Program-made: the position numbers and the translations under genes
Notes under the pieces: generated by a model
Told to the model about the DNA's origin: nothing
Seen by the model: the letters and a program-made list of their open reading frames with translations, nothing else
Databases searched by the model: none
Shown: positions 20,685 through 31,022 of the stretch, in pieces
Layout: each line of letters opens with the position of its first letter
Position numbering within the stretch: the first letter of the stretch is position 1
Assembly (NCBI GenBank): GCA_905234075.1
Contig: CAJOGI010000001.1
Location: 62,001 to 126,000 of the forward strand
Source: an uncultured Synergistales bacterium
GTDB lineage: Bacteria; Synergistota; Synergistia; Synergistales; Aminobacteriaceae
Reading direction: 5' to 3'
Length of the DNA stretch: 64,000 nt

Positions 20685-22253
20685 GTGCGTAATAACTTCA
20701 AATTCTTCTTTACGCTAATTTTTATTGTATTATTAAATTCTTTTATGGCAGGCAGTACAGGCTGGGCAGAGACTTATTCAAGCACCACAGGGGGTACTCA
20801 CGCAATTACAGCAAGCGGCACAACAGTAACTTATACTAACCCGACAGTTACAAAAACCGGCGATGTCTCCGGCCAAAGCGATGATTATGACTGGAAGGGA
20901 ACTAACGCAGCAGTGTGGGCAGGCAACGGAGCAAATCTGACAATTACAGGCGGAACAATTAATTCAAACGCTAAATACGGCAACGCAGTTTTTTCATACG
21001 GCGGAACAAACAGCAACACTAATAACAATCAGGGCGACGGCACGACGGTTACTATTTCCGACGCAACGATAACGACGACCTCAAATAATTCCGGCGGAAT
21101 TATGACAACGGGCGGCGGAATTATGAACGCTACGAACTTAACTATCAAAACTTCGGGCGGATCGTCTGCGGCTATTCGTTCGGACAGCGGCGGCGGAACA
21201 GTTACGGTTTCGGGCGGAACCTATGAGACTTCCGGGACAGGCTCGCCTGCAATTTATTCAACGGCAGCAATAACAGTGGCGGATGCGGATTTAACCGCAA
21301 CAAATTCTCAGGGCGTAGTCATTGAAGGCGGCAACTCCGTAACTTTAACGTCATGCAAAATCAACGCCAACCATGCCACCAAGAACGGCCAAGACTCAAC
21401 GCGCCAAGCTGTTTTATTGTATAAGTCAATGTCAAAGGACGCTTCAAGCGGAACATCAGCCTTCACTATGACGAACGGCTCAATAACGAACACTATAGGA
21501 GATATTTTCTGTGTAACTAACACGACAAGCACAATTAATCTGACTAACGTAACGATCACGAATAATGACACGTCGGGATATTTTTTAAGAGCGGAAGGGC
21601 AAAATTGGGGGACTTCAGGATCAAACGGCGGAGCAGTAACCTTTACGGCGAGCAATCAGAATATTTCAGGCAATATTATTCTTGACAGTTACTCATCGCT
21701 CACAATGACTTTGAAAGACAATTCAACTTTCAAGGGCGCAATTTCTCTTGAGAGTTCTTCCTCATCTTCGTCTGTCAATACCAGCGCATCTGTAGCAAAT
21801 GTATCTATAACGGTCGAAGACGGCTCAAAGTTGACTCTAACTGGGGATTCTTCAGTTGCGTCAATAACTGTCGCAAATGCAAACGATGTTGATTATGGAG
21901 AATATACACTTAACGTAAACGGCACAAGCTACAACGCAAGCAATCCCGTCAGCGGCACAGCAGGAGATACGACCAGCAATCAAACCACCACCGATACAGA
22001 CACCGGCACTAACACTAATACGAACACGAACACCGGCACTGATACGCAGACCAACACGGAGACTAATACAAACACAGGCACGCAGACGAACACTCAAACA
22101 AACACAAACACAAATACGAATACTAACACTAACACGAACAACAACAGCACGGGCACGACTACTTCTGTCGGCAGCAGCAGTAGCGGCTGTAATGCAGGCT
22201 TCGGTTTAGCGGCGTTGGCGATTTTAGCTTTAGCAAAAAAAATTAGGAGCTAA
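20685..22253 (+). CDS. Exported beta-helix-like protein with Synergist-CTERM tail
   Basis: 522 residues, GTG start at 20685 with AAGGAAGG upstream. Signal peptide residues 1-28 (cleavage after GWA). Residues 30-430 are rich in Thr, Ser, Asn and Gly with repeated ITGGTI / VTVSGGTYET / LTLTSCKI rungs, typical of right-handed parallel beta-helix or pectate-lyase-like surface proteins. Residues about 438-495 are a Thr-Asn-rich linker (TNTNTNTN) encoded by a near-microsatellite. The tail GSSSSGCNAGFG, hydrophobic helix and KKIRS fits Synergist-CTERM. Adhesion is a guess; no catalytic residues are recognised. The final IRS and stop derive from a repeat-like attaggagctaa. Confidence 0.8.
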   Translation: MRNNFKFFFTLIFIVLLNSFMAGSTGWAETYSSTTGGTHAITASGTTVTYTNPTVTKTGDVSGQSDDYDWKGTNAAVWAGNGANLTITGGTINSNAKYGNAVFSYGGTNSNTNNNQGDGTTVTISDATITTTSNNSGGIMTTGGGIMNATNLTIKTSGGSSAAIRSDSGGGTVTVSGGTYETSGTGSPAIYSTAAITVADADLTATNSQGVVIEGGNSVTLTSCKINANHATKNGQDSTRQAVLLYKSMSKDASSGTSAFTMTNGSITNTIGDIFCVTNTTSTINLTNVTITNNDTSGYFLRAEGQNWGTSGSNGGAVTFTASNQNISGNIILDSYSSLTMTLKDNSTFKGAISLESSSSSSSVNTSASVANVSITVEDGSKLTLTGDSSVASITVANANDVDYGEYTLNVNGTSYNASNPVSGTAGDTTSNQTTTDTDTGTNTNTNTNTGTDTQTNTETNTNTGTQTNTQTNTNTNTNTNTNTNNNSTGTTTSVGSSSSGCNAGFGLAALAILALAKKIRS

Positions 22254-26045: not shown

Positions 26046-27695
<1,650 letters not shown>

Positions 27696-27770
27696 CAGGT
27701 AGGAGTTAGGAGTTAGCCTGCCTCTGCCTGACGGACAGACAGGTGCCGGACAGGCAGGGAGGTAGGAAGT
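27696..27770 (+). repeat. TAGGAGN dispersed repeat copy 9, interrupted by a palindromic insert
   Basis: caggtaggagttaggagtta begins right after the groEL stop. It is broken by about 42 bases with inverted ends (CCTGCC at 27717-27722, GGCAGG at 27753-27758), then resumes with gaggtaggaagtaaaa. Confidence 0.85.
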
Positions 27771-27810
27771 AAAAGCCCGGCTCCTCAATCCCAAATAAAT
27801 TAAGAAAATA

Positions 27811-27848
27811 AAAATCCCCGTGAGAATTTATCCCGCGAGGATTTTTTT
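27811..27848 (+). terminator. Terminator of groES-groEL
   Basis: AAAATCC (27811-27817) pairs with GGATTTT (27839-27845), extended inside by CGTG/CGCG, and followed by a T run. Confidence 0.8.
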
Positions 27849-28061
27849 ATATGGCGGTCGCAGTTAAAAATTTTTCGCCGAAAATTTCAAATTTGTGCTT
27901 GCAAAATGAAAAAATTTAATTAAAATTTTCACTCATGACGTTTTTACTTACAGCGTTAAAAATTTTTTTATCTTAGTTTTAATAGGAGGACAGAGTTTTC
28001 ACAAAATGCGCTTGACAAAAAGTAAACTTCGTGAAAAATTTTCACAGCACAGCACCTCTGA
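27849..28061 (+). promoter_or_regulatory. Leader of the third surface protein gene
   Basis: Possible promoter TTGCAA (27899-27904), 16 bases, TAAAAT (27921-27926). AGGAGGA at 27984-27990 precedes ATG 28006, but that frame ends at 28098. TTTTCAC (27996-28002) is repeated in the 15-base palindrome GTGAAAAATTTTCAC (28031-28045), which looks like an operator or an alternative hairpin. TTGACA at 28012-28017 lacks a good -10. Confidence 0.4.
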
Positions 28062-31022
28062 TTGTCTTTTTTTTCGATTAAATTTCTTTCAAATCTGAAT
28101 TTTTATCCCTGCGTAAGAAATAAATTTTTTGCTTTTCTGCTCACGTTGGCAATGGCGGTCGGGCTGTTGTCGGGGACGGCAAATGCGGCTGAGACATGGG
28201 GCGAGAATAAAACAATCTCCAGCACTCAACAGATTACCGGCGGTGTAAACGTTACTGCCGACATCACCCTGACAATCCCCACAGGTGTTACTCTGACCGT
28301 CAACGGCGTTATCAATGCGAACGGCAAGACCCTGACAGTTAGCGGCGACGGTACGTTGATTGTTAGGGGCACAAACGGCACAGACGGCACAGACAGCACA
28401 ATCGCCACAGGCGGCGGTTACGGCTTCACTGGAAACATGATTGTCAATGGTACTACTGTTGTTCAGGTAACTGGCGGCAATGGCGGCAATAGCAGCAACA
28501 GCACTGGCGGCAAGGGCGGCTATGGCATTTCCGGAAACATCACCGTCAATAGCGGTTCAGTTGAAGTAACAGGCGGCAAGGGCGGCGATGGCAGCAATGG
28601 CAACAATGGCGGCAGTGGCGGTAACGGTATTTACGGAAATATCACCGTCAGTAGCGGTTCAGTTAAAGTAACAGGCGGCGACGGCGGCAATGGCTATAGC
28701 GTCAACGGCGGTAACGGCGGCAATGGCGGCAAAGGCATTTCCGGAAACATCACCGTCAATAGCGGTTCAGTTAATGCAACAGGCGGCAAAGGCGGCAATA
28801 GCGGCAACGGCAAAGGCGGCGATGGCGGCAACGGCATTCAAGGAAATATCACCGTAAATAGCGGTTCAGTTAAAGTAACAGGCGGCTATAGAGGCAATGG
28901 CGGCACTGGCTCCAATGGCAGCAACGGTCAAGCTGTAGCAGGAACAATCACCGCTTCAAAGGCTCAGGAAAGCGACGACGGCAGCACTTGGACGCCTCTT
29001 TCCGGACCAGGAAAACGATACGTTAAAATCGAAATTACTCCCGTAACAGGTGTGTCCCTCGACAAGACCGCAATTACTAATTTACCCTTAGGCGATACGG
29101 TAACGTTGACAGCAACCGTCAGCCCTGACAATGCCACAAGCAAGGCCGTAACATGGACGACGAGCGATGAAAATATAGTATCAGTTGACCAAAGCGGAGA
29201 TGTTACGGCAATGGGAGTCGGAACGGCAACGATCACAGCAACGGCCACCAACGGAACAACCGCAGCATCAGACGACAAAACAGCAACGTGTACAGTTACG
29301 GTAATAAAAAATCCCACGATTACATTTGACGCTAACGGCGGTTCGGGCTCAATGAATGTGCAGACAATTTCTTATGATGTAGCAACGACCTTGACGGCAA
29401 ACGCTTTCACCCGCACGGGCTACACCTTTAACGGCTGGAATACGAAAGCCGACGGCACGGGAACAAGTTATGCGGACGGAGCTTCAATCAAATTAACCGC
29501 AGATACAACGCTTTATGCACAGTGGACGGCGAACACCTACACCGTTAAATTTAACGGCAACGGCGGCACGGGCTCAATGAGCGATCAGGTTTTTACTTAC
29601 GACACCGAAGGAACATTGAGCGATAATAAATTCACTCGTGCAGGTTATACTTTTAACGGCTGGAAGGACAATGACGGCAACAAAACTTATAATGACGGTG
29701 CGTCTGTCAAGAATCTCACGGCAACGAACGGCGCAGCAATAACTCTTTATGCTCAATGGAAAGTTAATCAATACACGCTGACGTTTAACACAAACGGAGG
29801 CTCTGCAATTTCAGCAATAACGCAGGATTACGGCACAGCAGTAACTGCTCCGGCAAATCCGACTAAAGAAGGCTATACGTTCAACGGCTGGGACAAAGAA
29901 ATTCCCTCGACAATGCCTGCTGAAAATTTGACCTTCACAGCTCAATGGAAAGAAAACGAAAAAACGCCGGACACAGACCCAGAATCTGACGATAAACAAG
30001 CAACTGAAGAGTCAGCAGACAAAACGCCTGAAAGCAAAACTGCGAACGCTGAAGCAGTTTCAACAATGAGCAATGAAGAATTAAAACAGACTTTTGAGAA
30101 TAAAACTGCAATCACTCTCACAGGCAACATCAGTAACGAGAATTTATCTTCAGTCATTGAAAAAATTGCGAATGTTACGGAAGTTAAGACGCTGGATTTG
30201 TCGAAACTTGGAGGCGTTACCGAAGTCAAGCTGAAAGAGACTACCGCTGTGGAAACACTAAGCGTTGCGGGAAACCAAACGATAACAAAAGTCGAAGTTC
30301 AAAATAACACGTCATTGAAGTCAATCAATTTATCTTCAAGCAAAGTAGAAACGATTGACGCTAAGGGCTGTACTGAATTAACGGAGGTTATTTTAACGAG
30401 CTGCGACGAGCTTCAGAAACTTGATGTCAGTGAAACTCTGATAACAAAACTTGACACTAGCAACTGTGAAAAACTTTCATCAATTAACTGCAACTCATGC
30501 GATATTTCGGAACTAAATATTGACGGCTGTAAAAAACTTGCTGACTTGAACTGCGCGAATAATAGCTTAACGAGGCTCGATGTGTCGGGCTTTGCGTTAA
30601 ACAGTCTTGAATGTGAGCATCAAACAGTAAAAGGCTTCATAAAAAGAGCGTCATTTAACATTCTTGATATTTTATTGAGAAGGCTTGAGGCGTTCGTAAC
30701 GTCTGACGCAAATGATGATTCAGGTTACGTTGCCAACGTCAAAGATATTAAGGGCGTTGACGAAAACGGCAATGAATTTTCACCGGCAAGCTACAAAGAA
30801 GAGACAGGCGAAGTTGTATTTTCAAAAGCTCCTGCGAACATAAAATACAATTACATAACAGGCTTTTCTGATATAAGCATGGACGTAACGGTCGAGACCA
30901 GCGGCGAATCACAGCAAATTAATTCTCTCGGCAGCAGCGGCGGAGGCTGTGATATGGGCTTTGCGGGGCTTGGTGTCTTGGCTCTTGCATTAACATTCAT
31001 GAAAAAAAATCACTCAAAGTAA
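28062..31022 (+). CDS. Exported multi-domain surface protein (Big_2, InlB B-repeats, LRR) with Synergist-CTERM tail
   Basis: 986 residues if begun at TTG 28062, a start without a Shine-Dalgarno. A signal peptide is clear (RNKFFAFLLTLAMAVGLLSG, cleavage near ANAA). Five Gly/Asn-rich repeats with GNITVNSGSVKVTGG follow (about 125-290), then a Big_2 Ig-like domain (VTGVSLDKTAIT onward), three Listeria-Bacteroides type B-repeats (each ending GYTFNGW ... YAQW), an acidic Thr/Glu linker, a leucine-rich-repeat-like region (LKSINLSSSKVETIDAKGC), and the tail SSGGGCDMGFAG plus helix plus KKNHSK. Adhesion or host interaction is an inference. The SD-linked ATG at 28006 is in another frame; adding one base to the T8 run at 28067-28074 would join them. 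Confidence 0.8.
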   Translation: MSFFSIKFLSNLNFYPCVRNKFFAFLLTLAMAVGLLSGTANAAETWGENKTISSTQQITGGVNVTADITLTIPTGVTLTVNGVINANGKTLTVSGDGTLIVRGTNGTDGTDSTIATGGGYGFTGNMIVNGTTVVQVTGGNGGNSSNSTGGKGGYGISGNITVNSGSVEVTGGKGGDGSNGNNGGSGGNGIYGNITVSSGSVKVTGGDGGNGYSVNGGNGGNGGKGISGNITVNSGSVNATGGKGGNSGNGKGGDGGNGIQGNITVNSGSVKVTGGYRGNGGTGSNGSNGQAVAGTITASKAQESDDGSTWTPLSGPGKRYVKIEITPVTGVSLDKTAITNLPLGDTVTLTATVSPDNATSKAVTWTTSDENIVSVDQSGDVTAMGVGTATITATATNGTTAASDDKTATCTVTVIKNPTITFDANGGSGSMNVQTISYDVATTLTANAFTRTGYTFNGWNTKADGTGTSYADGASIKLTADTTLYAQWTANTYTVKFNGNGGTGSMSDQVFTYDTEGTLSDNKFTRAGYTFNGWKDNDGNKTYNDGASVKNLTATNGAAITLYAQWKVNQYTLTFNTNGGSAISAITQDYGTAVTAPANPTKEGYTFNGWDKEIPSTMPAENLTFTAQWKENEKTPDTDPESDDKQATEESADKTPESKTANAEAVSTMSNEELKQTFENKTAITLTGNISNENLSSVIEKIANVTEVKTLDLSKLGGVTEVKLKETTAVETLSVAGNQTITKVEVQNNTSLKSINLSSSKVETIDAKGCTELTEVILTSCDELQKLDVSETLITKLDTSNCEKLSSINCNSCDISELNIDGCKKLADLNCANNSLTRLDVSGFALNSLECEHQTVKGFIKRASFNILDILLRRLEAFVTSDANDDSGYVANVKDIKGVDENGNEFSPASYKEETGEVVFSKAPANIKYNYITGFSDISMDVTVETSGESQQINSLGSSGGGCDMGFAGLGVLALALTFMKKNHSK

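Follow-up and report, generated by a model that had tools for sequence, protein, structure and literature searches.

How is a surface protein to be synthesized when the start codon that follows a ribosome binding site, and the signal peptide with which the protein begins, lie in different reading frames? The question is posed by a locus in a 64,000-nucleotide stretch of DNA (the window, G000:C1:62001-126000) from a rumen-type Synergistaceae bacterium whose 1.84 Mb genome is in 18 contigs. A sequence-only reading had drawn attention to the ribosome-binding-site letters AGGAGGA, to an ATG whose frame soon closes, to a run of eight Ts at which one extra T would fuse that frame to the signal-peptide frame, and to a TTG as the only nearby start in the latter frame; all of these are present as described, and no start further upstream shares the signal-peptide frame. 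It proposed slipped-strand on/off switching, or else a sequencing or assembly error, and missed a match to a second promoter, a CACAG repeat and a second copy of the leader on C2 of the same genome.

The gene and its start region

The protein is a member of the Synerg-CTERM surface proteins, with a C-terminal match to TIGR04564 that is above the cut-off. (Elsewhere in the window, at 20685-22253, is another secreted protein with a GTG start, whose Synerg-CTERM-like end at 19.8 bits is just under the same cut-off.) The relevant features, all on the + strand, are as follows.

27899-27926, +, upstream promoter match P1, TTGCAA-N16-TAAAAT, 9 of 12 positions
27984-27990, +, Shine-Dalgarno-like AGGAGGA, ending 15 nt before ATG 28006
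28006-28098, +, leader frame from ATG 28006 to TGA 28096-28098, crossing T8 and what is left of the CACAG repeat; in G007:C10 the signal peptide is in this frame
28012-28039, +, nested sigma-70-like promoter match P2, TTGACA (28012-28017), N16, AAAAAT (28034-28039), 10 of 12 positions, ending 3 nt before the repeat
28031-28033, +, alternative start GTG; in G009:C126 and G025:C17 its counterpart shares the signal-peptide frame
28043-28055, +, CACAG tract CACAGCACAGCAC of 2.6 units, against 4 to 11 units in relatives; the family's slippage tract
28059-28061, +, TGA in the signal-peptide frame, between the repeat and T8
28062-28064, +, TTG, sole start in frame with the protein
28067-28074, +, T8 tract (T9, T9, T7 and T9 in homologues)
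28109-28120, +, CTG CGT AAG AAA (ATG in the C2 copy), possibly left over from an older start, out of the signal-peptide frame
28119-28187, +, signal peptide core NKFFAFLLTLAMAVGLLSGTANA, from the translation, by inspection
28062-31022, +, surface protein frame, 986 aa, with Big_2, three List_Bact/Flg_new repeats, LRR and a C-terminal Synerg-CTERM
30936-31019, +, Synerg-CTERM sorting signal TIGR04564, 22.7 bits (cut-off 22.5)

RNA initiated at P1 would include the Shine-Dalgarno-like sequence, the ATG, the repeat and the gene, and is the presumptive working mRNA, while RNA from P2 would be without the ATG 28006 start. A near-consensus sigma-70 promoter over the leader start, at a fixed distance before the CACAG tract, is seen in both the window and its relatives. 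The sequence CACAGCACAG is expected by chance 0.03 times in the window. No terminator was found at 27600-28200, and the element has no Rfam match.

Two simple choices of start do not suffice. As a plain start, ATG 28006 is rejected as a full account, given that its 15 nt spacing is long for a Shine-Dalgarno and that it stands just 5′ of the -35 hexamer, within a promoter-repeat element that is conserved. The TTG of TTGACA is rejected as a start since its frame is closed in relatives, e.g. L080 and L085.

A cassette before surface genes

The same architecture precedes surface genes in about half of 43 genus genomes (these genus-mates being Synergistaceae/Synergistales metagenome assemblies, mostly from ruminant sources), and is also present in Clostridia, Lactococcus and Treponema. 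TTGAC followed by a gap and at least two CACAG units was found in 20 of the 43, a count to which chance may have contributed some few of the two-unit matches, and 0 times in the reversed control. Tracts of at least four units are in 15 of the 43, with none in the window's own genome. Promoter frequencies were taken from tract-chosen sets only, the Clostridia examples having been selected with TTGAC in the pattern. Among 22 loci picked by their tract only, 20 have TTGAC correctly spaced (expected 0.31) and 20 a -10 hexamer (expected 0.04); 21 have an ATG whose frame stays open as far as the repeat (expected 9.3), and 10 an open ATG or GTG accompanied by a Shine-Dalgarno (expected 1.4). Of 31 loci of relatives, 17 have an extended -10 located 5′ of the element (expected 1.0), so that upstream RNA can carry the Shine-Dalgarno, ATG and repeat, while the second promoter overlies the start.

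The genes served include those for MBOAT, UbiA, polysaccharide pyruvyl transferase, GT8, GT11, ABC export, Poly_export and LRR proteins. Contigs of genus-mates break within the CACAG tract at L044, L046, L082-L085, L087, L089, L092 and L009, which suggests that several tract-bearing loci per genome are hidden by the assemblies. In the class of G072 just one locus with a tract of at least five units was found in a sample of 291 genomes, and there the cassette is thus sporadic. In two Lachnospiraceae-type genomes the Rfam Clostridiales-1 RNA (RF01699) is just 3′ of the cassette (L203:1993-2204, + strand, and L180:1638-1794, - strand).

Three outcomes of the open frame

Typically, one of the three phases after the repeat fuses to the protein, reaches the gene's start codon, or passes a terminator. 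In the fused layout the protein frame has no stop across the repeat, and L089, L097 and L099 have no start codon after it, so that translation must come through the repeat. The second layout is one of coupling: of the 16 genus loci in which the gene possesses a start codon of its own, 10 have one and only one frame extending from the repeat to within -10 to +15 nt of that codon, compared with a mean of 2.7 expected from shuffling (0 of 1000 shuffles), though some loci are mutually related and the independent count is smaller, about 7 of 12. In the third, attenuator, layout a strong terminator-like hairpin is between repeat and gene (14 of 15 Clostridia, Lactococcus and Treponema loci), and usually one frame stops at, in or past the hairpin; this layout, of the type known for pil1 (see below), is also present in G400, G372 and G394. 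That the element functions as a promoter only, with translation irrelevant, is rejected for the family on account of the several genes without a start after the repeat and of the frame that reaches the gene start far above chance.

Three sister species of another Synergistales genus, which came to light later and played no part in forming the idea, have near-identical flanks with tracts of 27, 41 and 61 nt that represent all three phases, and their leader frames end respectively at +101 (past the terminator), +0 and +4. These leaders (L302, L303 and L304), which precede an ABC-2 transporter gene, constitute a natural allelic series.

Homologues of the window leader

The second whole-leader copy, at G000:C2:304546 (L002, L047), is 89% identical to that of the window and precedes a surface gene whose middle is missing and which is split over two frames, ending in a Synerg-CTERM-like tail. 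Alignment of the two from the ATG to the signal peptide shows two length differences, five bases in the CACAGCACAG stretch and one T (T8 versus T9), a total of six, so that the two copies share their frame offset. Repeat and T-run lengths are 13 nt and T8 in the window, 15 nt and T9 in the C2 copy, 15 nt and T7 in G007:C10, and 53 nt and T9 in G025:C17, with an interrupted repeat of 9 units and T9 in G009:C126; 53 nt is the longest CACAG tract at the homologous place in related leaders of other species. The frame from the signal peptide back through the repeat is open in all four homologues of the window leader. In G007:C10 the homologous ATG is in frame with the signal peptide, and in two others the homologous GTG is. 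With one genome per species compared, both ON (G007:C10, from its ATG, and L091) and OFF states (the window, the C2 copy, L096-L099 and others) are represented.

The window copy

The window copy belongs to the fused layout. With T8 its signal-peptide frame is in phase with TGA 28059-28061, whereas none of the four homologues has an in-frame TGA between repeat and signal peptide. As that TGA is between the repeat and the T run, no number of CACAG units opens the frame, and the gene as assembled should be OFF whatever that number; to reopen the signal-peptide frame back through the repeat, the T run itself would have to change. The earlier suggestion of slipped-strand switching is upheld in part by the comparison with homologues, the family-wide switch being the CACAG tract rather than the T run. 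The latter is a real determinant of frame in the window copy, where T8 meets the TGA and the T7 and T9 homologues are open, even though a T8 by itself is ordinary (30 A/T runs of at least 8 are in the window, mostly within intact ORFs).

The reading that accounts best for these features, and that we regard as somewhat probable, is that the window has a copy of a genus-wide slipped-strand start cassette for surface genes, OFF as assembled. Transcription would begin upstream at P1, and a ribosome would start at the ATG or GTG near 28006-28033, read the CACAG repeat and, if the frames agree, go on to translate the surface protein from its signal peptide. The frame would be set by gain or loss of CACAG units and, in the window copy, by the number of Ts as well. 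There the repeat would have been worn to 2.6 units, with T8 aligning the signal-peptide frame with the TGA to give the OFF state. A tandem repeat is indeed between start codon and gene body, longer in homologues. Counting against this explanation are the Shine-Dalgarno spacing, the lack of the start on P2 RNA and the short tract. The pentanucleotide is probably too short to be very mutable, a repeat long enough for hypermutability being absent, with just the 2.6 units and T8 here and no tract of at least four units in the genome; CACAG switching of the window gene may accordingly have ended, while the T8 may still be switchable.

The same facts bear on a decaying relic, in which the repeat has been lost, the shift at T8 is fixed and the gene is silent or becoming a pseudogene. 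The worn tract, the lack of longer ones in the genome and the closure by TGA of every repeat phase are as such a relic would have them, and the C2 copy, off by the same amount and internally broken, fits decay too; relic status is nonetheless unlikely given that the 986-aa frame, sorting signal included, is intact and that the architecture is kept in homologues. A sequencing or assembly error, the real tract being T9 or T7 and the frame continuous, gains something from the window being alone among five homologues in having T8 while the others are open. It is weakened, to the point of being improbable, by the location of most other A/T runs of at least 8 in the window well inside intact ORFs, which makes a systematic homopolymer miscount unlikely. 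T runs of 8 to 9 can give transcript slippage, and TTG 28062 is in frame; the protein might be made at T8 regardless, from that TTG or because RNA polymerase slips or ribosomes shift frame on the T run. We consider this very doubtful, since the TTG has no Shine-Dalgarno and is out of frame in every one of the four homologues, the latter speaking against its being the natural start.

Relation to known switches

In Neisseria opa genes a CTCTT pentanucleotide slips near the end of the signal-peptide coding region of surface proteins. The cassette described here would likewise slip at a pentanucleotide near that place; it differs in unit and position, and opa has no nested promoter and encodes unrelated proteins.

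Frame switching of methyltransferase genes by CACAG/ACAGC is already known. Such repeats are in the methyltransferase gene mod of P. haemolytica (Ryan and Lo 1999, as cited in PMC5149525), and Bibersteinia trehalosi HsdM has an MPN(STAQH)n repeat (PMC4996451). The pentanucleotide and the encoded (STAQH)n are the same here, as would be the restriction of the ON state to a repeat in frame with the ATG. In Pasteurellaceae, however, the repeat is inside a restriction-modification gene, whereas here it precedes surface genes and is accompanied by a nested promoter.

The pil1 and pil3 loci of Streptococcus gallolyticus have a GCAGA pentanucleotide in a translated leader with Shine-Dalgarno and ATG (Danne et al. 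2014, PMC3894217). For pil1, mutation showed that a frame change lengthens the leader so that the ribosome disrupts a terminator before the surface operon (PMC3894217). The Clostridia, Lactococcus, Treponema and sister-genus Synergistales CACAG loci resemble pil1/pil3 in layout. Differences are the CACAG unit and the second promoter nested over the leader start and, in the genus of the window, an open frame that usually ends at the gene's start codon or fuses to the protein, mostly without a recognisable terminator. The window copy, being fused, does not have the pil1 arrangement of leader ORF and then terminator.

More broadly, it is possible, and is proposed tentatively, that a cassette of upstream promoter, Shine-Dalgarno and ATG, nested sigma-70 promoter, CACAG tract and one open phase is common to Synergistota, Bacillota and Spirochaetota before surface genes, and that in Synergistaceae the end of the leader is coupled to the start codon of the gene itself, a variation undescribed for pil1. 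The mostly open-access literature that was searched yielded no account of CACAG cassettes in front of surface genes, nor of any in Synergistota.

Significance

Genes of this kind are easily mis-annotated as having a TTG start or as broken. What appeared to be a frameshift at T8 becomes a member of a widespread and scarcely described class of switch, before surface polysaccharide and adhesin-like genes of uncultured gut bacteria, and the frame rule by which ON or OFF can be read from metagenomes is directly testable.
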